Positions 4,461 through 37,371 of a stretch of 41,051 nucleotides of DNA are shown piece after piece. Position 1 is the stretch's first letter. Every line of letters begins with the position of its first letter. Where the stretch lies: assembly GCA_001775995.1 (NCBI GenBank), contig MEZH01000016.1, forward strand, positions 10,263 to 51,313. The letters are read 5' to 3'. The DNA is from Candidatus Bathyarchaeota archaeon RBG_16_48_13. GTDB lineage: Archaea > Thermoproteota > Bathyarchaeia > RBG-16-48-13. Under the pieces are notes generated by a model. That model was not told where the DNA came from, made no database searches, and saw nothing but the letters and a program-made list of their open reading frames with translations. The position numbers and the translations under genes were made by a program.

Positions 4461-4700
4461 GATGAATCAATAAATCAGTGTTCACGCTGTTCTTTAATTC
4501 TTTTTGTATGCTTGTTTTCAGAGGATCAGTAACCTGAGGCACAGGCAGCGTCTTCAAAGCATCTGCTACTGACTTGCCAACCCGTACGTCCTTTCATTGT
4601 AACAATTAGCAAATGCATCATGAGTCCTCTTCTCAACCCTTTTATAATTCCTCGATAGAATTGCCCCCGATTAACACAAGAGACTTTGAGGTTTCAAAAA

Positions 4701-5042
4701 ATGCTGTTCCTGAACATATTGAAGGCATATATGCCTTTGCCGATACCTCTGGCCCAATTTGCCGAGCTGGCGGTCAAGCACCGGGACTACCTGAGGAGGC
4801 TCGAGAAAGAGGGAAAGATAAAGTTCACCGCCGCCTTCCTGGGGAAGCGGGCTAGGGTGATAATCTTCGACGTCGAGTCCGACGAGGAGCTCTTCGAGTG
4901 CATAAACGCGGACCCGCTATTCAACTACATGGAGCGGGAGACCCACGCGCTCATCTCGAACGAGAAGGTCTACTCCATATACGAAGGGATCGAGAAAGCC
5001 TCGTCCAAGAAAACACCTGCGAAGAAATTCAAGCGAGAATGA
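4701..5042 (+). CDS. Small dimeric alpha/beta-barrel (muconolactone-isomerase/YCII-like) protein
   Basis: YMPLPIPLAQFAELAVKHRDYLRRLEKEGKIKFTAAFLGKRARVIIFDVESDEELFECINADPLFNYMERETHAL; start uncertain (4686 or 4701). Confidence 0.7.
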   Translation: MLFLNILKAYMPLPIPLAQFAELAVKHRDYLRRLEKEGKIKFTAAFLGKRARVIIFDVESDEELFECINADPLFNYMERETHALISNEKVYSIYEGIEKASSKKTPAKKFKRE

Positions 5043-5842: not shown

Positions 5843-7171
5843 TTAATCTAGCAATCGTATTCTCAGGCTCCTTCTTCGGGATGAAGGATCTGATTTTAGA
5901 GTCTCCGTTGCGGAAAGAGAAACTTCACGATCGCTGTCTACATGTATCACAAACTCGATCTGAGGCACACCTCGAGGTGACGGCGTTATCCCTGTGAATT
6001 GCACCCTCCCCAGAGACACATTTTTCTCTATCTTCTGGTTCTCTCCAAATGCTATGTGGAGGTTCATTTCAGTTTGATTGTCAGCCAAGGTTGAAAAGAT
6101 TCCTCGATGCTCTAATGGCAATGAGCTTCCCATCTTGATAAGAGGGGTGAAGACCCCTCCCAATGTCTCGACCCCGATGGAACCGCGATCTAAGTTGATC
6201 CTTCCGAGCCTCAAGCTTTCTTCAGTTGGCTTTGCAGGAAGATTAGTCTCAACATACGCCTTGTTGTGCAGGGTTTCTGCGTGTTGCGGGTTGATTTCCA
6301 GAGCCTTATCAAAGCACCTTAACGCTTCATCAATATGGCCCAAACCCGCCAGAACAATTCCTTTACTACTCCAGGCATCCGTGTACTGAGGGCTCATTCG
6401 CAGTGCTTTGTCGAAGCATTCTAAGGCCTCACTCAAACGATTGATACTATTGAGACTGTTCCCTTTTGCGTTCCAAGTCTCTGTGTCTTGTGGGTTGATC
6501 TTCAGAGCTTTGTCGAGGCATTTTATTGCTTCATCGAAGCGTCTCAACTCATGGAGCATAGTTCCTTTCTTATACCATGCCTCTCTAAGTTGCGGATTTG
6601 TTGCCAGAGCATTATCATAACAGTTCATTGCTTCATCAAGACGACCCATCTTACGGAGGTCGTTTGCCTTGTTGTACCAAGCCTTTGCGTCTTGTGGGTT
6701 GATTCTCAAGGCCATATCGCAGCATTCTATCGCTTCATCAAGACGGCCCAAATAGTAGCAGCTCGCTCCCTTGGCATTCCATGCACTTGCATCTTGTGGG
6801 TTGATTTCCAGAGCTTTGTCGAAGTATCTTATTGCTTCATCAAAACGATCGAGACTATTGAGCGCAGCTCCCTTCCCGTACCAAGCTTCTTCGTAACGAG
6901 GGCTAATTGCCAGAGCGCTCTCGTAACGTATTGCCGCTTCATCAAAACGACCATATTCGTAGTGAATCGATCCCTTGTACCACAAAACTTCTGCGTCTCG
7001 CGGGTTGATTTCCAGAACCTTATCGAAGCATTTCAAAGCCTCATCAAAACGTCCAGAATCCGCAAGGTCCTTTCCCTTTTTCTTCCACTTTTTCGTTTCA
7101 TTATCTGGCAATTCGTCTGGTTTTGGAGTGTCAGTTGCCTCTTTTTCTTTCTTCCGTTTGAAGATGTTCAT
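5843..7171 (-). CDS. TPR repeat protein with C-terminal Hsp70/DnaK-like substrate-binding beta-domain
   Basis: Eight 34-aa TPRs (FDEAIRYFDKALEINPQDASAWNAKGASCYYLGR etc.) followed by SIGVETLGGVFTPLIKMGSSLPLEHRGIFSTLADNQTEMNLHIAFGENQKIEKNVSLGRVQFTGITPSPRGVPQIEFVIHVDSDREVSLSATE, matching the DnaK SBD-beta pattern. Confidence 0.92.
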   Translation of the reverse strand: MNIFKRKKEKEATDTPKPDELPDNETKKWKKKGKDLADSGRFDEALKCFDKVLEINPRDAEVLWYKGSIHYEYGRFDEAAIRYESALAISPRYEEAWYGKGAALNSLDRFDEAIRYFDKALEINPQDASAWNAKGASCYYLGRLDEAIECCDMALRINPQDAKAWYNKANDLRKMGRLDEAMNCYDNALATNPQLREAWYKKGTMLHELRRFDEAIKCLDKALKINPQDTETWNAKGNSLNSINRLSEALECFDKALRMSPQYTDAWSSKGIVLAGLGHIDEALRCFDKALEINPQHAETLHNKAYVETNLPAKPTEESLRLGRINLDRGSIGVETLGGVFTPLIKMGSSLPLEHRGIFSTLADNQTEMNLHIAFGENQKIEKNVSLGRVQFTGITPSPRGVPQIEFVIHVDSDREVSLSATETLKSDPSSRRRSLRIRLLD

Positions 7172-7469
7172 ATATCAGTCACCTTGTAGTTCAAACAACG
7201 CTTCTTCGTTGAAGGCTTACGTGTTTTTTGCGAGCGCTCATACCAAATCAAGGTGTCAAGATTCCAATTCCAGCTTAGAAAATGATTGTGAATAATGAAC
7301 CCGCCTAAGAAGGGAATAGAAAGCCCAAACATCAAGGCCTTGATTCTGTCAGAAAAAGTATGGGTCAATCAAGACACTGATTGTATTATGGAATCGATAG
7401 ATTCTTAATACTTCTGTCTGTTGCTTGTTTCCGAGCGCGCTTACAGCAGGTGAGGTCCAGGGGTGTGAA

Positions 7470-7910
7470 TTACTTGCCTCTGCCGCTGCATCTCTTGCAA
7501 ATGCCGTGAATGTCGAGGCGCTGCCCTGTCCGCGTGAACTCCTTCTTGGCAGCAAATTTCGCAACCATTTCCCTAGCGGCAGGATCTTCCATGTCCTCTA
7601 TGCTCCCGCATCGGAGGCAGACCAAGTTTATGTGGGGCTCCATGCAGGAATCGAACCTCGCCTGGCTTCCGGGGAAATCCAGCTCCTGGACCAACCCGTG
7701 TTCAGTCAATATCTGAAGCGTCTTGTATACTGTCGCGAGGCTGACGGTGGGATGGACCTTCCTCACTTCATCGTAGACCCTCTGCGCGGTCGGATGGTCT
7801 CGACTCTGGAGCGCGTACCGGCACACCGCTATCCTCTGGGGAGTGGCCCTGTACCCCTTCTTGCGGAGGCTCTCGATAATCAGCGCGTCTGACTTGAGGA
7901 AGCTGCTCAT
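7470..7910 (-). CDS. Fur/PerR family transcriptional regulator
   Basis: GYRATPQRIAVCRYALQSRDHPTAQRVYDEVRKVHPTVSLATVYKTLQILTEHGLVQEL...HINLVCLRCGSIED...HGICKRC. Confidence 0.93.
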   Translation of the reverse strand: MSSFLKSDALIIESLRKKGYRATPQRIAVCRYALQSRDHPTAQRVYDEVRKVHPTVSLATVYKTLQILTEHGLVQELDFPGSQARFDSCMEPHINLVCLRCGSIEDMEDPAAREMVAKFAAKKEFTRTGQRLDIHGICKRCSGRGK

Positions 7911-8003: not shown

Positions 8004-9452
8004 TTGAAGAAAAGATTCCTTACAACGAACCAGGGCGTTCCCGTCTCCGACAACCAGAGCTCGCTCACAGTCGGCGACCGCGGACCCGTCCTGCTGCAGG
8101 ACGTCCATCTGATCGAGAAGCTCGCGCACTTCGACCGCGAGCGCATACCCGAGCGCGTCGTCCACGCGAAGGGCGCCGGTGCGCACGGCTACTTCCAGGT
8201 GTACAAGAGCATGGAGAAGTACACCTGCGCGAATTTCCTCCAAGACCCGAAGAAGAAGACGCCGGTCTTCGTCCGCTTCTCGACGGTCGTCGGCGCACGA
8301 GGATCAGCGGATTCGGCGCGTGATCCCAGGGGCTTCGCGGTGAAGTTCTACACCGAGGAAGGAAACTACGACCTGGTGGGCAACAATCTGCCGGTCTTCT
8401 TCATCCGAGACGCGATAAAGTTCCCCGACATGGTGCACGCCTTCAAGCCCGCCCCAGACACAGGATACCCCACGAGCTCTTCGGCGAACAGCCGCTTCTG
8501 GGACTTTATCTCCCTCCACCCGGAATCGACCCACATGATCACCTGGCTCTTCTCGGACAGGGGTACGGTGAAGAGCTACAGGAAGATGGAGGGGTTCGGC
8601 GTCAATACCTACAAATGGGTGAACTCCAAGGGCAAGGAGGTCTACGTCAAGTACCACTGGAAGCCTAAAGAGGGGATAGAGACAATCGACCGCCATGAAT
8701 CCACCCGCCTCGCTGGCGAGGACCCTGACATCGCGACCCGCGACCTGCGAGAGACGATTGCCTCCGGCAAGACCGTAGAATACGAGTTGCGCGTCCAGAT
8801 CATGGAGACGGCCGACGAGCTGAAACTGGATTTCGATCCACTCGATGCGACGAAGACCTGGCCCGAGGACAAGTATCCGCTGATGCCGGTGGGAAAGATG
8901 GTGCTCGACCGCAACCCCGAGAACTTCTTCGCAGAAACGGAGCAAGCCGCCTTCAGCCCGGGCTCCATCGTCCCGGGAGTCGACTTCTCCACCGACAAGC
9001 TCCTCCAAGGAAGAGTCTTCTCCTACGCGGACACGCAGAGGCATCGACTCGGCGCCAACTACCTGCAACTGCCGGTCAATCGGCCAAAGGCGCAGGTGGA
9101 CAACAACCAGCGCGACGGCGCCATGCAGTACGCGCCCTACGGCGGAGGAACGGTCAATTACGAGCCCAACACCCTGGCGGGCGGGATGCCACAGGAAGCA
9201 TCGGCCATCGCCGTGAGCACGCCGAACATCGAGGGCAGAATCATCCGCAAGAAGATCGGTCTGACGAACAACTTTGAGCAGGCAGGCAAACGCTACTGCT
9301 CACTTAACAAGACGGATCAGGACCACCTGGTCGGGAACATCGCGGACTCGCTGGGCCACGCGGACAAGCCGATCCAGCAGCGCATGGTCGAGAATCTGAC
9401 CAAAGCCGACAATGAGCTAGGCAAGAGAGTAGCAAAAGAACTTAAGCTCTAA
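8004..9452 (+). CDS. katA: Monofunctional heme catalase
   Basis: TTNQGVPVSDNQSSLTVGDRGPVLLQDVHLIEKLAHFDRERIPERVVHAKGAGAHGYFQV...VRFSTVVGARGSADSARDPRGFAVKFYTEEGNYDLVGNNLPVFFIRDAIKFPD; TTG start with GGGAGG upstream. Confidence 0.97.
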   Translation: MKKRFLTTNQGVPVSDNQSSLTVGDRGPVLLQDVHLIEKLAHFDRERIPERVVHAKGAGAHGYFQVYKSMEKYTCANFLQDPKKKTPVFVRFSTVVGARGSADSARDPRGFAVKFYTEEGNYDLVGNNLPVFFIRDAIKFPDMVHAFKPAPDTGYPTSSSANSRFWDFISLHPESTHMITWLFSDRGTVKSYRKMEGFGVNTYKWVNSKGKEVYVKYHWKPKEGIETIDRHESTRLAGEDPDIATRDLRETIASGKTVEYELRVQIMETADELKLDFDPLDATKTWPEDKYPLMPVGKMVLDRNPENFFAETEQAAFSPGSIVPGVDFSTDKLLQGRVFSYADTQRHRLGANYLQLPVNRPKAQVDNNQRDGAMQYAPYGGGTVNYEPNTLAGGMPQEASAIAVSTPNIEGRIIRKKIGLTNNFEQAGKRYCSLNKTDQDHLVGNIADSLGHADKPIQQRMVENLTKADNELGKRVAKELKL

Positions 9453-9690: not shown

Positions 9691-10260
9691 ATGTTTAGAA
9701 ATCGAGAAGGAATACGCCAACGAGTTCAGGAGATTGTAGAGAGATTTCGCCAAAAAGGAGCCACAAGTCCAGAAAAGGCCATGACGACCCAAGAGCTAGG
9801 GTTGCCGCCGCGTTTTGAAGATGCCATGCATCGAAGACTCGGTCAATCAGGCATCTTCGTTGAGGTGAACGGCAAATACTACTTGAATGAAGAACGACTC
9901 AAACGGGTCCAAGAGCAACGCGCCAAGGCGGGGTCTAGAATCGACGGAAGCATCGGAGCGGGTCAACCCACCTGGTTCCGGATTGCCGGGATTCTGCTCA
10001 TGCTGCCGATCGGCGTCATCGTCGCCCTTGCCCTGTTCTTCATTCTCGGCTCAAGAATAGGGTCCTTTCCTGGGGAATTCCTCATTATCGTGACGGCCAT
10101 CTTGCTGGCGTTGACCGTGGCCAGGCTGTTATTCTGGAGGTCTAGAAGGAGATATTGGCGGGGGCGCGGCGGTTCTGGTGGATTGTTCTCCAGCGCGCGG
10201 ACGCTTCAAGAATGGCTCAATGCGAGCCAAGACTTCAGGATCTCAGTGTGGCCGGATTAG
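9691..10260 (+). CDS. Hypothetical membrane protein, N-terminal HTH-like region plus two TM helices
   Basis: MFRNREGIRQRVQEIVERFRQKGATSPEKAMTTQELGLPPRFEDAMHRRLGQSGIFVEVNGKYYLNEERLKRVQEQRA, then two hydrophobic helices; start and C-terminal tail uncertain. Confidence 0.65.
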   Translation: MFRNREGIRQRVQEIVERFRQKGATSPEKAMTTQELGLPPRFEDAMHRRLGQSGIFVEVNGKYYLNEERLKRVQEQRAKAGSRIDGSIGAGQPTWFRIAGILLMLPIGVIVALALFFILGSRIGSFPGEFLIIVTAILLALTVARLLFWRSRRRYWRGRGGSGGLFSSARTLQEWLNASQDFRISVWPD

Positions 10261-11249
10261 ACGGCTTCGCACATCGCTATGAACATGGCCTTCACCTGCT
10301 TGAACGTCGCACCGCTGTTCAGGCTGGTTTTCTTTGAGCTTGAGCTGTCCCACCCACTCATGACTTCCGTCATGAATCCCGCCGCGCCTTTGCTCGCCGC
10401 ACCGCCGTACGAATTTCCTGACCCGCAACCGCTGCCGACCGAGAACGTCCATTTACTTGTTACACCCAGCGCTGATTGTATTCCGGAGAGAAGGCTCTTC
10501 ACTTTGTTTGCGTCCGTCTTCGCTTGACTGGTCGTGGCGCTACACCATGTTTGCGGAGATGCTCCCTGATGCAGGTTCCAGTATATCCGGGGGTGGTACT
10601 TGTTCCAAGCGTTTATGAGAGCTTGAGCCTCCTTTTCGCTGTTCGCGGAGGTCCCGGAGTATGAGTCGGTGTTCGAATGGCTCAGCGAACTGGGCCAATT
10701 CGGACCGAAGTTCCTGTTGAGGTTGACGCCGCATTTCCCTCCGTCTTTGGCCGGGTCTTTCGCAGTCATCCAGGAGGGCACGTTGTAGTTGGTTCTCCCC
10801 CACCTGTAGTCAACGATTGGGACGATCAGGACGTAGTTGTTTTGGAGGATTTGTTTTGCGTAGGTATCGCCGCTTGTGAGGAGCCATTTGACCAGTGAGT
10901 AGAGGACTTCTTCTCCGTAGAACTCGTTGCCGTGAAGGTAGCTGTCCACCATCACCGGGGCGCCGTTGGGGTTGCCGAACTTGAAGAGGATTATGTCCCA
11001 GCCGTATGTGCCGCTGCTCTTGCCTATGCTCTCATAGGTTCCGCGGTACTGATTGGCCAAGGACATGAACGCTGGGATCACCGCTTCTTTCTTGGTCCAT
11101 GGCAGATAGCTCGAAGGTACTCCCCCGTAGGAGATCTTGCCGGTTGCCGGATATGACAGAGCCACGGCTTGCACGGGCTGCACTTGGATGCCGAATGACG
11201 CCACTGCGATGATGACCAGCAGTATGGCCAATACCTTAAGCATTCTCAT
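10257..11249 (-). CDS. Secreted M14 family zinc carboxypeptidase
   Basis: Signal peptide; YLHGNEFYGEEVLYSL (HxxE zinc site), GVNLNRNFGPNWP, NLHQG and C-terminal GFMTEVM. Confidence 0.9.
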   Translation of the reverse strand: MRMLKVLAILLVIIAVASFGIQVQPVQAVALSYPATGKISYGGVPSSYLPWTKKEAVIPAFMSLANQYRGTYESIGKSSGTYGWDIILFKFGNPNGAPVMVDSYLHGNEFYGEEVLYSLVKWLLTSGDTYAKQILQNNYVLIVPIVDYRWGRTNYNVPSWMTAKDPAKDGGKCGVNLNRNFGPNWPSSLSHSNTDSYSGTSANSEKEAQALINAWNKYHPRIYWNLHQGASPQTWCSATTSQAKTDANKVKSLLSGIQSALGVTSKWTFSVGSGCGSGNSYGGAASKGAAGFMTEVMSGWDSSSSKKTSLNSGATFKQVKAMFIAMCEAV

Positions 11250-11260
11250 TGCTTGTTACC

Positions 11261-12937
11261 TCAGACCGTGGGCCCGCTGGACAGGCTGTCGCCGTAGACC
11301 GTGAGCCCAGCCTGCACGTTTGTCGCTGATAATATGCCGAAGTCCACGTGGGTCGCAGCGGCGCCGCCCGAGTTCACAGTTAGCTGAAGCACCTTCGTCC
11401 CGTCGACGTACATCTCAGCAAGTCTCTGCCCGGCGTCGTAGCGTATCTCTACGCTGTGCCAGCTGTTGGCAGACACTACTTTGGAGGAAGTCACGTATGA
11501 CCCTGCGGCGTAGAGCTCCCACCTGTTGGTGCTTCCCGTTCGCCTTATCCCGGCCGTTGCGAGGGATTTTGTTCCGTCAGAGAGGCGGATCAGGTAGAAC
11601 CTGTCACCCTCGTCTCTGAGCCAGCTGGAAGTGGAGCTGACGATGCGGACGTATCCCTTTGCGAAGGCCTTCTGCAGAGGGTCCACATTTTCGTACAAGT
11701 AGGCGTTCTCGGTCCCGCTTGAGGTTCCAGAAGTCGTGAATCGAGCGCTGTAAGCGCCCTGGTATGGCGTGTATTTCCCGATAGTTACGGTCTCGCCCGA
11801 AGTCTTGCTTGACCCGCTCCAGGCGCCGGCATCTCCAGATTCAAAGTTGTCTTCAAACGCATCGTCCGAAGGCGTAGGGGCAGGCGTAGGCGAGGGCGTA
11901 GGGTTGGGTGTTGTGCTCGACGACTCAGGGTATTTCGTGAGCTCGTAGTACGCGGGCTTCGGGGCGGTTCCGCTGTAGATGTTGAAGGCCATGCTGCTCG
12001 CTTCTCTGGCCTGCCACATCCAGGCGTAGGTTATGGTAATGATCCCGGCGCTTAGGAATTTCTGGAGGCTGAGCTTGTAAAACTGCGTGACGAAGGCGCT
12101 GTCCTTGCTGTCGCTGCCGTACTCGATGACCCACAGGGGGACGCCGGCCGCTTTGACCTGCGACACGAGGGTGTTCCAGTCGCTCCAGGTGACGTGGTAT
12201 CTCGTGCTGCTCGGGTCGGCGGGGTCGAGATATTCCGTGACCGCGAATGCGTCAAACATCTTGTACACGGACTGATCGTATTTGCCAGTCGCTGGGGTGT
12301 AGGACAGGGTGAAGCGGCAGGCTACCATGTGCTTCGGGTCCACCGATTTCACCGCGGTGTAACTATTCTGGAAGAGGGTCTGGAATTGGCTTTTGTCTTG
12401 GCTTGTCCAAGGATACTTCCAGGGCTCGTTCATCACGGCCCAATTATCCACGGCAGGGTAGTCTTTGAGCTGTGCGACCACGGCTTTCAGGTACCGGAGA
12501 TAGTATCCCTGGACGGTAGAACTGGACACGATGTCATAGTAGTCGTTCACCCACGTCGGTAAGCCGAGGTCGTAGGTGAACTGCGTCCAGAAGGTGATCC
12601 CCACCTTTATGCCGTACTTGTCCGCTATCTGGAGGACGCGCTTGTAATTGTTCATGGCCGTGGTCGACAGACGAGCGCTGCTGCTGGAGAATGTGGGCTC
12701 CGTCACGGACCAGAGTATCCGCACGTTTATGTGTTTGATTCCGTCTTTTGCGAACCGCGAGAAATCCGCTGTCAGAGTCGAGTTGGGTTCGCCCCAAGCG
12801 TTTCCTGAAGACAGGTAGTTGATGCCCGCGACCAGCGTAGCCTGTGCCTGCGCCGGCCTCACTTGAACGCCGAAGGATGCCAGTGAAATAAGGAGCAGGG
12901 TCACCAGCAGCGTCAAAGGCGCTTTGTGCTTCATCAT
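11261..12937 (-). CDS. Secreted clan GH-A-like glycoside hydrolase with Pro/Thr linker and C-terminal LamG/lyase-like beta-domain
   Basis: Signal peptide; GINYLSSGNAWGEPN, WAVMNEPWKYPW (acid/base), WVIEYGS (nucleophile); linker TTPNPTPSPTPAPTPSDD; C-terminal DNFESGDAGAW...SWHSVEIRYDAGQRLAEMYVDGTKV. Confidence 0.85.
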   Translation of the reverse strand: MMKHKAPLTLLVTLLLISLASFGVQVRPAQAQATLVAGINYLSSGNAWGEPNSTLTADFSRFAKDGIKHINVRILWSVTEPTFSSSSARLSTTAMNNYKRVLQIADKYGIKVGITFWTQFTYDLGLPTWVNDYYDIVSSSTVQGYYLRYLKAVVAQLKDYPAVDNWAVMNEPWKYPWTSQDKSQFQTLFQNSYTAVKSVDPKHMVACRFTLSYTPATGKYDQSVYKMFDAFAVTEYLDPADPSSTRYHVTWSDWNTLVSQVKAAGVPLWVIEYGSDSKDSAFVTQFYKLSLQKFLSAGIITITYAWMWQAREASSMAFNIYSGTAPKPAYYELTKYPESSSTTPNPTPSPTPAPTPSDDAFEDNFESGDAGAWSGSSKTSGETVTIGKYTPYQGAYSARFTTSGTSSGTENAYLYENVDPLQKAFAKGYVRIVSSTSSWLRDEGDRFYLIRLSDGTKSLATAGIRRTGSTNRWELYAAGSYVTSSKVVSANSWHSVEIRYDAGQRLAEMYVDGTKVLQLTVNSGGAAATHVDFGILSATNVQAGLTVYGDSLSSGPTV

Positions 12938-15207: not shown

Positions 15208-15711
15208 TCAGGGACAACTGGTGCGTTTCTCTACTTCAGTGAATGGAAGGGTGTCGACCGCTTGATGGAAGAAGAGCTTCATGAAGTAGCGCATAACGCG
15301 GAACGCGACTCTGGTGTGCCCATCTTTCTTTGGTTTAGGCTGGAAAAATCCTTTCTTCGTCATGTAGAATATCACGCTCGGGAAGACACCCTCAAGGGCA
15401 CATGGTATCTCCTTCTGCCCTAATTGACGGTAGGCATGGTATCTGTGGTGACCATCCACCACGGCATATAGATCGCGCTTCGGATGCTTGATCACGATGA
15501 TCGGTTCAAGGTCTTGGCCCTCCGCTATTCTTCTACCATATCGGCACACCACGTCGCTTTGAACCTTCGAATCCGAAACGATTTTCTCAGCAGGCAACTT
15601 AATCACGTACTTCGCTGGATTAACGTACACGTCGGGGTTGAACAAGTATCCGGCTTTCTGAAGGGCAACCTCAGTCCGCTTGGGTAACTCAGGGATTGCA
15701 GTCTTTGACAT
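15208..15711 (-). CDS. Stand-alone ParB/Srx-fold protein (DGHHR motif), paralog A
   Basis: YVNPAKYVIKLPAEKIVSDSKVQ...LEPIIVIKHPKRDLYAVVDGHHRYHAYRQLGQKEIPCAL; close paralog at 36817-37371. Confidence 0.82.
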   Translation of the reverse strand: MSKTAIPELPKRTEVALQKAGYLFNPDVYVNPAKYVIKLPAEKIVSDSKVQSDVVCRYGRRIAEGQDLEPIIVIKHPKRDLYAVVDGHHRYHAYRQLGQKEIPCALEGVFPSVIFYMTKKGFFQPKPKKDGHTRVAFRVMRYFMKLFFHQAVDTLPFTEVEKRTSCP

Positions 15712-15938
15712 GGATAATTGCACCGCCTATCTCCCGGGTCCTAGAAATGGACTATCGGAAACGCCAGAGGTCTTGTCCTCAGACCCCTTCAATCTCATGT
15801 TGTGAACTGCACAGCCGGTTCCCGGTGCAAGGCTGAACATCAATTTGTTGCGAGCCATTTTGCGCATCTTCGCTGAACAGGATGATCTTTTGACGGGCGG
15901 ACCATGGAAGAGGAGAAAAAGGGGCCGCCGCAGTCGTT

Positions 15939-16555: not shown

Positions 16556-17629
16556 CTACAGTTTCTTGCCACAGCTTCCACAGAACTTCATTCCGACCGG
16601 ATTCTTTGTTCCACAATTCGGACACACGAGCTCTTCCTGTTGAAGGGGTTTTCCGCAGTTCCCGCAGAACTTCATGGTTTCAGGATTCTCTGTTTGACAG
16701 TTGGAGCATTTTACCGTTCGAGCGGGCGCCAAACTAGTTCCGCAGTTCCCACAATATTTCTGTCCGAGGCTATTTTGGCTTCCGCATTTGTTGCAGATGA
16801 TGACTTGTTCCGGCTGAGCCTGGGTTTGAACCGACTTCATCATCTGAGCCCCAAACGCAAGGCCTATCCCTGCCCCGAGTCCAGCTCCCGCTGCTCCGCC
16901 TGCTCCACCGTCGCTTGGCAGAACCGCAGCCGTCTCTTTAGCATATTGCATGGTCATGGCCTGCTGTCCCATCCCCGAAGCGAATCTCCTCGCCTCTTCA
17001 GGTATCTTCACACCTTCGAAGGTTGTGTCAATGATTGTAAGGCCTATCCTGCGGGCTTCATCATTAATAGTTAGAGCGATCTTGTCCGTGGTCTCGTCAA
17101 CGTTCTTCACCAATGACGAGGTTTCATATTCAGCGAATGCGTCGATGACCCGTTCAACTACGAAGCCACGAATATAATTCTCGACGTCTGATGAGGTGCT
17201 CGCCTTACGGTTCCCGAAAAACTCCATTACAAAAAGCCGGGGGTCATCCACCTTGTAAAGTGAGTAGCCGAAGAACCCTATCTCTGCTTGATACTGAATC
17301 TGTCCGCTGGGTGCAGAATATGCTGATCCACCAAAGTTGGCGCGCATCTGACTATTGTTTACGAAGATGACTTCGCATTCAAAGATATCTCCGATCAACT
17401 TGACGCCCTTCAGCAAATCTATGAGAAGGGGAATATTGTTGCTGGATATCGTGTGGCGACCGGGTCCAAAGACGTCAAGGGCCTTTCCGTCTCTGAAGAA
17501 GACGGCCCACTGATTTTCCATAACAATGACCTGGCTTCCAAACTTAAGTGAAACATTTGGATACCTGACCGCGATTTGGTCTGGTGTGGCATTTTGCCAT
17601 GATATGGCTTCAATTAAGGGCATTTCCAT
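16556..17629 (-). CDS. SPFH domain protein with three C-terminal zinc ribbons (YdjI-like)
   Basis: N-terminal SPFH region (DQIAVRYPNVSLKFGSQVIVMENQWAVFFRDGKALDVFGPGRHTISSNNIPLL), Gly/Ala-rich linker, then CNKCGSQNSLGQKYCGNCG, CSNCQTENPETMKFCGNCG, CPNCGTKNPVGMKFCGSCG. Confidence 0.9.
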   Translation of the reverse strand: MEMPLIEAISWQNATPDQIAVRYPNVSLKFGSQVIVMENQWAVFFRDGKALDVFGPGRHTISSNNIPLLIDLLKGVKLIGDIFECEVIFVNNSQMRANFGGSAYSAPSGQIQYQAEIGFFGYSLYKVDDPRLFVMEFFGNRKASTSSDVENYIRGFVVERVIDAFAEYETSSLVKNVDETTDKIALTINDEARRIGLTIIDTTFEGVKIPEEARRFASGMGQQAMTMQYAKETAAVLPSDGGAGGAAGAGLGAGIGLAFGAQMMKSVQTQAQPEQVIICNKCGSQNSLGQKYCGNCGTSLAPARTVKCSNCQTENPETMKFCGNCGKPLQQEELVCPNCGTKNPVGMKFCGSCGKKL

Positions 17630-17635
17630 TCTCTC

Positions 17636-18178
17636 CTACATTTCTTTTGATCTGAAATATTCTTCTCTTTCCTTCCATCTTTTCTCAGTGCTGTCGAGCA
17701 CTTTTTTCATACTATTGATTCCGTCAGACACTGCATCCCAATCCTCTTCCTCTACGCTTTTTGCCACGTTGTCCTCGGATTCTTTGAGTCGAACCAAGTA
17801 TTCACCGAATTCCTTGTCGTAGTTGAAGACTCTTGCGAGTTCGTTTGATTCTATCTGTCCTCGCCTATTGAATAGCGGTGCATAACCGTAGGTGGCTCTG
17901 TTAACCTGCTCCTGGATCCTGTCGAGGGTCTGAATCACAGTCTTGGTTTTTCTGTTGAGCGAGGGTTGTTTGGACTCGAGTATCTCCAGATAGATTTCCT
18001 CCCATCTTTTTCGCAAATCGGATAATTCTTTATGATAATCCTCGCGTAGCTGCATGTCAAATTCTTTCAGGTCTTCCCTTGTACCTTTTCCCAAGAGAAG
18101 AGAATCCTGTATCTTAGACATCCAACTCTGTTCTTCCTTGGCTTTTTCAACTGTTTCCTTTTCACTCAAATCAATCAC
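17636..18178 (-). CDS. Coiled-coil protein in SPFH operon
   Basis: 180 aa, charged heptad-like sequence; 6 nt before the SPFH gene and 2 nt after the upstream gene. Confidence 0.75.
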   Translation of the reverse strand: MIDLSEKETVEKAKEEQSWMSKIQDSLLLGKGTREDLKEFDMQLREDYHKELSDLRKRWEEIYLEILESKQPSLNRKTKTVIQTLDRIQEQVNRATYGYAPLFNRRGQIESNELARVFNYDKEFGEYLVRLKESEDNVAKSVEEEDWDAVSDGINSMKKVLDSTEKRWKEREEYFRSKEM

Positions 18179-18180
18179 TC

Positions 18181-19314
18181 CTAGTTACTGGAAACGGGAA
18201 TGGTTGCGCCGCAGTACTTGCATTGCAAAGAAGTCTGTCCTCTGTAAATCTCCTCCGAATAAGGTGCGCTACATCTTGGACAAACAATTGGGACAGACGG
18301 CCGCTCATCTGTCTTGGAGCCTTCCGTTGCATCAAGTTCTTGATCGGCCTCCCCATTCGAAATGAAATTGTGAAAGCGCAAGACTAGATCTGCGTCTTCG
18401 CCATCAGTATCGAGTTTCATCTCCTGTTGCCCGCTGTCAGGTTTGAATGTGACGTACAAACCTTGTCCAGCGAGGATGCCAACTCTGCCTTTCACAATAT
18501 TATCAATCATGCCGATAGGTCTGTCAACAGTGGTCTCACGAATTTTCTTCTTTTGCGTCGCGATGAAAAATGTTTTCTTCAGAACCACTTCTTTCTCCGA
18601 CTCATAGATGAAGCGTTGGTTGGTCAGGCTCAAGACCCCTTCAGCATCAGCGTTCAAGTCTTTTGCTTTGACTGAAAGGATGGGAGATTCACCCTGTTTC
18701 CATTTGAACGATGAAATCGATGTAAGACTGAGTGTCCTCTCCGCCACACCAACATCTCGGTCTAGTGAATGTATCTTATTCAACGTGTCCCCCGTAGCGC
18801 CGGATACTCGGCTTGAGAAATCCGACACGTAAGCTTGAAATGTGGAGACCCTCGCTTCAACACTACTTAGTTGAGAGACGTCATAGTTTGAGGAAAAGCG
18901 TCTTTGAGCCAATTCATTCTCAATGGTTCTTCCCTCCGAAACGAGAACTGGTGCAGTGCTCCCAATGATGCTTGCTACATTGGGTTTTGCTAGTGACCAT
19001 CTTTCTGAAAGAGAGGCAACGTCCTTCTCAAGATTCATCATCACCCGATAATTCATCTTCCTGATCTGCTGAATTCTCGTGGGGAGTCTGTTCAAAGCAT
19101 CATCGATATCAGTTACATTTCTACTGGTTTGATTCAGCTGCTGCACTAAAAGGGAAACTTGGTTAGTTATGACATTAAATCGGTTCATATACGCTAGCTG
19201 TCTATTGTCTACGGTACTCGGGCTGTAGCCCGCTCCACTCGCGCTGTAACCCTTCCTCATAGGCCCCTGGCCACCCATATTCCCACCCATATGTATCACT
19301 GATTCTTGGATCAA
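18181..19314 (-). CDS. Coiled coil plus PH/GRAM-like domain plus C-terminal zinc ribbon
   Basis: Coiled-coil N-half; ADAEGVLSLTNQRFIYESEKEVVLKKTFFIAT...IDNIVKGRVGILAGQGLYVTF (PH/GRAM-like); VCPRCSAPYSEEIYRGQTSLQCKYCGATI (zinc ribbon). Confidence 0.8.
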   Translation of the reverse strand: MIQESVIHMGGNMGGQGPMRKGYSASGAGYSPSTVDNRQLAYMNRFNVITNQVSLLVQQLNQTSRNVTDIDDALNRLPTRIQQIRKMNYRVMMNLEKDVASLSERWSLAKPNVASIIGSTAPVLVSEGRTIENELAQRRFSSNYDVSQLSSVEARVSTFQAYVSDFSSRVSGATGDTLNKIHSLDRDVGVAERTLSLTSISSFKWKQGESPILSVKAKDLNADAEGVLSLTNQRFIYESEKEVVLKKTFFIATQKKKIRETTVDRPIGMIDNIVKGRVGILAGQGLYVTFKPDSGQQEMKLDTDGEDADLVLRFHNFISNGEADQELDATEGSKTDERPSVPIVCPRCSAPYSEEIYRGQTSLQCKYCGATIPVSSN

Positions 19315-36816: not shown

Positions 36817-37371
36817 ATGCACCCGGAACGTGATGGTCCAGTGCCGAGAACGGGAGGTATAGAATCGATTAAATCGAAGATTAAAAGTCTACGAAAGCCG
36901 CCGCAGCGAGAGATCAATCTCGATGTTTTCGCCAACCCTAGTAAGTATCTTAGGCGATTGCCCTTGGAGAAGATTGTCGCGGACACAAAGATCTATCGAC
37001 AAGGAGTTGAACGATACAAACGGAAGATCATCAAGGATGAGGACATAGCACCGATTATCGTGGTCAAGCATCCCACTAAAGAAATATATGCGGTTTTGGA
37101 TGGCCACCACAGGTACTTTGCATATGTTGAATTAGGAATAAGGGAGATCGATTGCGCCTTAGCAAGCGACTACTCATCTGTGGTTTTTTATGCGACTAAG
37201 CTCGGTCTATTCCAACCACATCCCGAGATAACAAAAAACGTACGGATCCCAGCACTCCAATTACACGGGAACTTGGAGCTGTTCCTATTGGATTTCCAAA
37301 AGAATCCTTACAGGTTCAGAAAATTGATGGAAGCCTATGTCAAGAGAATCAACGGTAGGCTGAAATCCTGA
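36817..37371 (+). CDS. Stand-alone ParB/Srx-fold protein (DGHHR motif), paralog B
   Basis: FANPSKYLRRLPLEKIVADTKIY...IAPIIVVKHPTKEIYAVLDGHHRYFAYVELGIREIDCAL...FYATKLGLFQPHP. Confidence 0.85.
   Translation: MHPERDGPVPRTGGIESIKSKIKSLRKPPQREINLDVFANPSKYLRRLPLEKIVADTKIYRQGVERYKRKIIKDEDIAPIIVVKHPTKEIYAVLDGHHRYFAYVELGIREIDCALASDYSSVVFYATKLGLFQPHPEITKNVRIPALQLHGNLELFLLDFQKNPYRFRKLMEAYVKRINGRLKS

Follow-up and report, generated by a model that had tools for sequence, protein, structure and literature searches.

One gene of Candidatus Bathyarchaeota archaeon RBG_16_48_13 encodes a TPR protein whose C terminus carries a substrate-binding beta-domain (SBD-beta) derived from Hsp70; the protein is neither an Hsp70 nor an HscA. 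Its best reading, to which we assign a probability of about 0.5, is an ATP-independent, low-affinity peptide-binding adaptor built on a TPR scaffold, with restricted specificity probable. The gene lies in a window—the whole stretch of DNA analysed—of 41,051 nt, corresponding to positions 10,263–51,313 of contig MEZH01000016.1 on the forward strand.

Gene and protein layout

The open reading frame (ORF) contains no internal stops, and its start codon follows a good Shine–Dalgarno sequence at a spacing of 7 nt (Table 1). The eight 34-residue TPRs described in the initial annotation are borne out by a Pfam match to TPR_1 (E = 4e-74), by eight in-register 34-mers over residues 26–297, and by a full-length structure model in which eight helix pairs precede a capping helix at residues 298–309; the protein thus has the tandem 34-residue helix–turn–helix repeats of the TPR family. 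By eye, no carboxylate-clamp residues for EEVD tails (Hop/CHIP type) were recognised in TPR1–3, and no TPR paralogues of the protein were found within the same genome (75% complete).

Table 1. Features of the TPR–SBD-beta gene and its product, in window coordinates
Feature	Position	Strand	Basis
TPR–SBD-beta fusion ORF, 442 aa, ATG to stop	5843..7171	-	ORF reading, Pfam
Shine–Dalgarno AGGTGA, 7 nt before ATG	7179..7184	-	Read from sequence
Lysine-rich tail, aa 1–25, predicted disordered (aa 1–19 pLDDT <50)	7097..7171	-	Structure model
Eight 34-residue TPRs, aa 26–297	6281..7096	-	Pfam, repeat register, modelled helix pairs
TPR capping helix (298–309) and linker with ETNLPAKPTE, aa 298–318	6218..6280	-	Model, sequence
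Hsp70 SBD-beta (beta1–beta8), without lid, aa 319–442	5846..6217	-	Pfam, PDB phmmer, model, fold match
L362, arch position, equivalent of DnaK A429	6086..6088	-	Alignment to DnaKs
M369, pocket position, equivalent of DnaK V436	6065..6067	-	Alignment to DnaKs
M347-G348, equivalents of E. coli DnaK NBD-docking K414-N415	6128..6133	-	Alignment; PMC4595643, PMC5240922

An Hsp70 substrate-binding domain without its motor

The Pfam HSP70 profile matches residues 331–426 through its positions 393–488 of 599 only, with an E value of 2e-18 when the full sequence is searched and 1.3e-19 when only the C-terminal piece is; judged by sequence comparison, the Hsp70 match of this domain is far beyond chance. 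The best PDB matches found by phmmer are DnaK SBDs (E ~1e-22), identity to the DnaKs compared is mostly 38%–48%, and the motif PRGVPQIE is intact. An AlphaFold model of residues 314–442, guided by 48 DnaK SBD rows, has nine strands (mean pLDDT 87.1), and its closest PDB folds are the SBD-beta of DnaK and BiP (TM 0.74–0.77, rmsd 1.6–2.3 Å); the model leans to the DnaK fold because DnaK rows guided its building. In the single-sequence full-length model, the TPRs exceed a pLDDT of 90 and the SBD fold is not predicted at all. Taken together, the profile search, the PDB matches and the modelled fold uphold the original identification of an Hsp70 SBD-beta sandwich. The extent of about 120 residues first given for it is about right if strands beta1 and beta8 are counted, which stretch the domain to about 319–441, but clear Hsp70 homology is narrower, at residues 331–424.

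The remaining parts of an Hsp70 are missing, as the initial annotation had claimed. The actin-like ATPase domain (NBD) is absent from the protein (Pfam) and from the 41-kb window (tblastn), with no in-frame NBD nearby; the hydrophobic interdomain linker LLLLDV is absent, the aligned stretch reading SLRLGRINLDRG; and there is no alpha-helical lid. Because the ORF stops directly behind the beta8-equivalent strand, the lid is missing by design of the ORF and not through truncation of the contig. Since NBD, linker and lid are all lacking, the protein is not an Hsp70, and no ATP-driven opening and closing of the groove would be expected.

A separate and intact DnaK system

A PF00012 search of the same genome found two places only: a 633-residue DnaK on contig C4 and the orphan SBD. 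Around the DnaK gene lie those for GrpE, DnaJ (with J, zinc-finger and C-terminal domains) and the thermosome, so that the full DnaK/DnaJ/GrpE set is present. When the genome's own DnaK was compared with the window by tblastn, only its residues 381–471 rose above background, at 6181–5909. The separate, intact grpE-dnaK-dnaJ operon and thermosome therefore make the TPR–SBD protein an extra one; a truncated, broken or mis-assembled dnaK is ruled out by the same operon and by the lack of NBD or lid remnants near the gene.

The genome is a draft of 16 contigs, 75% complete, which leaves room for an assembly chimera or contamination. This is very improbable: the fusion is a single open frame inside a 53-kb contig with similar composition on either side of the fusion point, and its SBD shares only about 41% identity with the DnaK of this genome. 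Among the neighbouring genes, one for a pyrophosphatase has orthologues of 45%–47% in genomes of the same order, and a second contig of the genome carries a 61% paralogue of a Fur family gene.

An altered pocket and changed motor-facing residues

Residues were compared with sets of 48 diverse DnaKs and 25 Thermoproteota DnaKs. The backbone of the groove is kept (E402, T403, G405, G406, F426, S427, T428, Q433, R467 and I472), and the peptide-contacting residues are mostly kept (E402, T403, G405, F426, S427, T428, Q433 and I472). Two pocket residues, however, are enlarged relative to DnaK, A429 being replaced by L362 and V436 by M369; A429 and V436 are present in 117/117 DnaK SBDs surveyed by pattern, whereas an HscA fragment has Y429 and M436. 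On the side that faces the motor, P419, L454 and D481 are kept, and the changes are K414M, N415G, Q442F and R445N. In DnaK, the substitutions K414I and N415G are known to weaken allostery or eliminate it (PMC5240922, PMC4595643). Conserved columns are kept at 7 of 10 substrate-side positions against 6 of 17 NBD-facing ones, a non-significant trend (Fisher p = 0.12) between column lists that rest partly on general knowledge of structures; over all columns, those conserved in DnaK are kept hardly better (29/57) than the variable ones (16/36).

The pair of enlarged residues recalls HscA, in which Met at 436 (HscA M433) leaves a shallower pocket that is tailored to proline, and a bulky arch residue compensates; IscU is the only known client of HscA, and in DnaK the substitution V436F raises the peptide KD 40-fold (PMC8215388). 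The fusion shares with HscA the large arch residue at 429 and the Met at 436 (L362/M369 against Y/M; PMC8215388); HscA, however, is a full ATP-driven Hsp70, and the fusion fails the HscA family model TIGR01991 (62 bits against a cut-off of 708). Because it scores higher against the DnaK model, at 82 bits, the HscA-like pocket is probably convergent. The main new point is thus a pocket that, from its sequence, appears to have been remodelled—retuned or narrowed—rather than merely inherited, although A429L and V436M might block the groove instead of retuning it. The domain would offer a test case for the setting of specificity by residues 429 and 436.

Distribution, age and origin

So far, the TPR–SBD architecture is a singleton, present in one Bathyarchaeia genome among those searched. 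An HMM search found no SBD in a non-DnaK ORF in 60 relatives. Among the matches listed, the fusion is absent from the other 256 of 257 genomes of the class, from 400 genomes drawn from the phylum and, overall, from ~580 genomes of the phylum; among the matches listed, it is likewise absent from 348 genomes sampled from the phylum of a Methanolinea genome and from 177 sampled from that of a Thorarchaeota genome. These collections are samples, and in TPR-rich genomes 10–19 candidates were scored each. GTDB genomes and IMG/VR were also scanned with patterns that demand near-exact 8-mers, and no such fusion came up; in a second GTDB scan, the best 80 of at least 584 relatives either were cut by contig ends or, from the length of their ORFs and the position of the match, were DnaKs. 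Among phage and plasmid tblastn matches, the annotated ones are named DnaK or HscA and several others are unannotated. The open-access literature yielded no published natural SBD fusion lacking an NBD. The architecture was thus looked for in other archaea and found in none of the genomes searched, so that the status of a conserved module is not supported and selection on function is not demonstrable by conservation.

Of the short ORFs listed, those examined as candidate orphan SBDs (L163–L171) were rejected, their sequences being contig-end fragments of DnaK and one dnaK, in the interior of a contig, with an in-frame stop. The latter, L163 (G1107:C388, minus strand), comes from the Thorarchaeota-centred phylum sample; its dnaK is split before the SBD half by a single in-frame stop, either real or a sequencing error, and dnaJ lies just downstream.

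In a phylogenetic tree, the origin of the SBD could not be placed (saturated branch, 112 columns). GC3 is 0.46 in the TPR half, 0.49 in the SBD half and 0.51 in the genome's dnaK, and the closeness of both halves to the dnaK operon suggests that both have long been in the genome. The SBD is identical to the genome's own DnaK at 39 of 93 positions. About 58% of aligned residues therefore differ, yet the frame is open, the alignment is free of gaps over 93 codons, PRGVPQIE is retained and 15 of 20 changed core positions are still hydrophobic. When the genome's dnaK SBD was mutated neutrally in simulation to the same identity, the frame stayed open in 13% of runs and as many hydrophobic core residues survived in 4.8%, a suggestive result that speaks mildly against decay and is not decisive. 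The open frame with its retained residues, the simulation and the strong Shine–Dalgarno sequence argue against an evolutionary accident, in which a TPR gene and a piece of dnaK would have become joined recently or neutrally and the product would drift, functionless, in a single lineage. The singleton status among the genomes searched and the DnaK-conserved columns, which are not preferentially kept overall, fit such an accident, but we regard it as improbable.

Proposed mode of action and its rivals

A lone SBD-beta without NBD, linker or lid, in a genome with a full DnaK/DnaJ/GrpE set, makes ATP-independent binding the natural reading. We infer that the superhelix of eight TPRs would dock on a partner, and that the detached SBD-beta would use the former Hsp70 groove to grip short peptide segments in extended form. 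Binding would be weak, fast and passive, like that of lidless Ssz1, and with a pocket narrowed in the fashion of HscA (L at 429, M at 436), a restricted motif or a dedicated partner would be most likely. The client or partner might then be handled by a factor held on the TPRs, for example the genome's DnaK/DnaJ/GrpE or its thermosome. The initial annotation had proposed an ATP-independent peptide-binding, holdase or adaptor protein; ATP independence stands as an inference, whereas a promiscuous holdase becomes less likely given the bulky HscA-like pocket. Its further phrase, that the TPRs replace the nucleotide-driven module, is a matter of wording only as regards any control of the groove by the TPRs.

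Ssz1, of the fungal RAC, keeps an ATP-binding NBD, partners Zuo1 and is not known to carry TPRs. It resembles the fusion in its lidless SBD-beta and its lack of an ATPase cycle, and the SBD-beta of this non-hydrolysing Hsp70 can act as a low-affinity chaperone; the LP pseudo-substrate of Zuo1 is bound by Ssz1 (PMC7083937). Linkers of BiP bind in the grooves of neighbouring molecules, even without a lid (PMC4608358). Both precedents would suit a second explanation, in which SBD-beta is a structural or docking module whose groove is permanently filled, by its own linker in trans or by one partner, and which serves assembly instead of client binding: a lid is unnecessary for the BiP contacts, Ssz1 holds a pseudo-substrate, and the linker between TPRs and SBD contains LP (ETNLPAKPTE). 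This weak match would arise by chance about 8% of the time, as a rough estimate, and LP alone is a poor motif; the docking explanation is unlikely, slightly more so than general holding of unfolded proteins.

In the latter case, the protein would be an ATP-independent holdase that, during stress, binds a wide range of unfolded proteins by their hydrophobic stretches and passes them to DnaK or the thermosome. A precedent is CnoX, a TPR holdase that passes its clients to DnaK/J/E and GroEL (PMC6282202), and the groove backbone residues are kept. The CnoX/YbbN chaperedoxins are indeed like the fusion in being TPR proteins that cooperate with DnaK/J/E as holdases (PMC6282202); in these, however, the partner domain is a thioredoxin, and the TPR domain is itself the activated client-binding part. 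An oxidative-stress role is hinted at by the adjacent Fur family gene and a catalase. This Fur/PerR-type regulator (7470–7910, minus) is on the same strand as the TPR–SBD gene, and a heme catalase (8004–9452, plus) diverges from it, but the gap between the TPR–SBD gene and fur is 298 bp, and GC3 is 0.75 for fur and 0.82 for the catalase against 0.46–0.49 for the TPR–SBD gene and about 0.5 for the dnaK operon. Co-regulation with the two genes under stress is hence unsupported. The weak binding expected of a lidless SBD-beta and the narrow specificity to which the bulky pocket points also tell against general holding, which we consider unlikely; the A429L/V436M pair makes a restricted partner or client the likelier case.

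A Toxoplasma protein, DnaK-TPR (20.m00351), is likewise named for DnaK/HSP70 and TPR parts; it has 763 residues, a central DnaK-like region (about 248–396) and two C-terminal TPRs, and thus the opposite domain order (PMC5693876). DnaK itself shares with the fusion the complete beta-sandwich of the C-terminal part of PF00012, the conserved groove residues and PRGVPQIE; the fusion departs from it in lacking NBD, conserved linker and alpha lid and in carrying A429L, V436M, K414M, N415G, Q442F and R445N.

Within the preferred adaptor reading, a more specific proposal is that the Hsp70 grip has been freed from its motor and, mounted on a TPR scaffold, has become a reader of a dedicated motif whose HscA-type pocket arose by convergence; this is tentative, and we would put it at appreciably less than even odds. 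Hsp70s are regarded as an inseparable machine of motor plus grip. If the proposal is true, a motor-free grip would show that the Hsp70 substrate domain is reusable as a stand-alone recognition module. More generally, a grip-only protein with several lost motor contacts and a changed pocket would be a test of whether SBD-beta is a portable peptide-binding module and of why Hsp70s need a lid and allostery. Bathyarchaeia are abundant and largely uncultured, and the TPR–SBD protein would add to them a possible chaperone adaptor, with a significance limited by its being known from one genome.

Other features of the window

The Fur-type regulator has its 61% paralogue on contig C3 of this genome. 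Two ParB-like ORFs (15208–15723, minus, and 36817–37371, plus) are very similar and resemble paralogues, with the stretches DLEPIIVIKHP...AVVDGHHRYHAY and DIAPIIVVKHP...AVLDGHHRYFAY, respectively. An M14 zinc carboxypeptidase (10257–11249, minus) adjoins a GH5-like cellulase (11261–12937, minus); both have N termini like signal peptides and are GC-rich (GC3 0.71–0.76). An SPFH/Band-7 protein with three zinc ribbons (16556–17629, minus) shares its strand with uncharacterised ORFs at 17636–18178 and 18181–19314, a possible operon. Finally, a muconolactone-isomerase-like protein (PF02426, E = 3e-13) is encoded at 4686–5042 (plus) in this archaeon.
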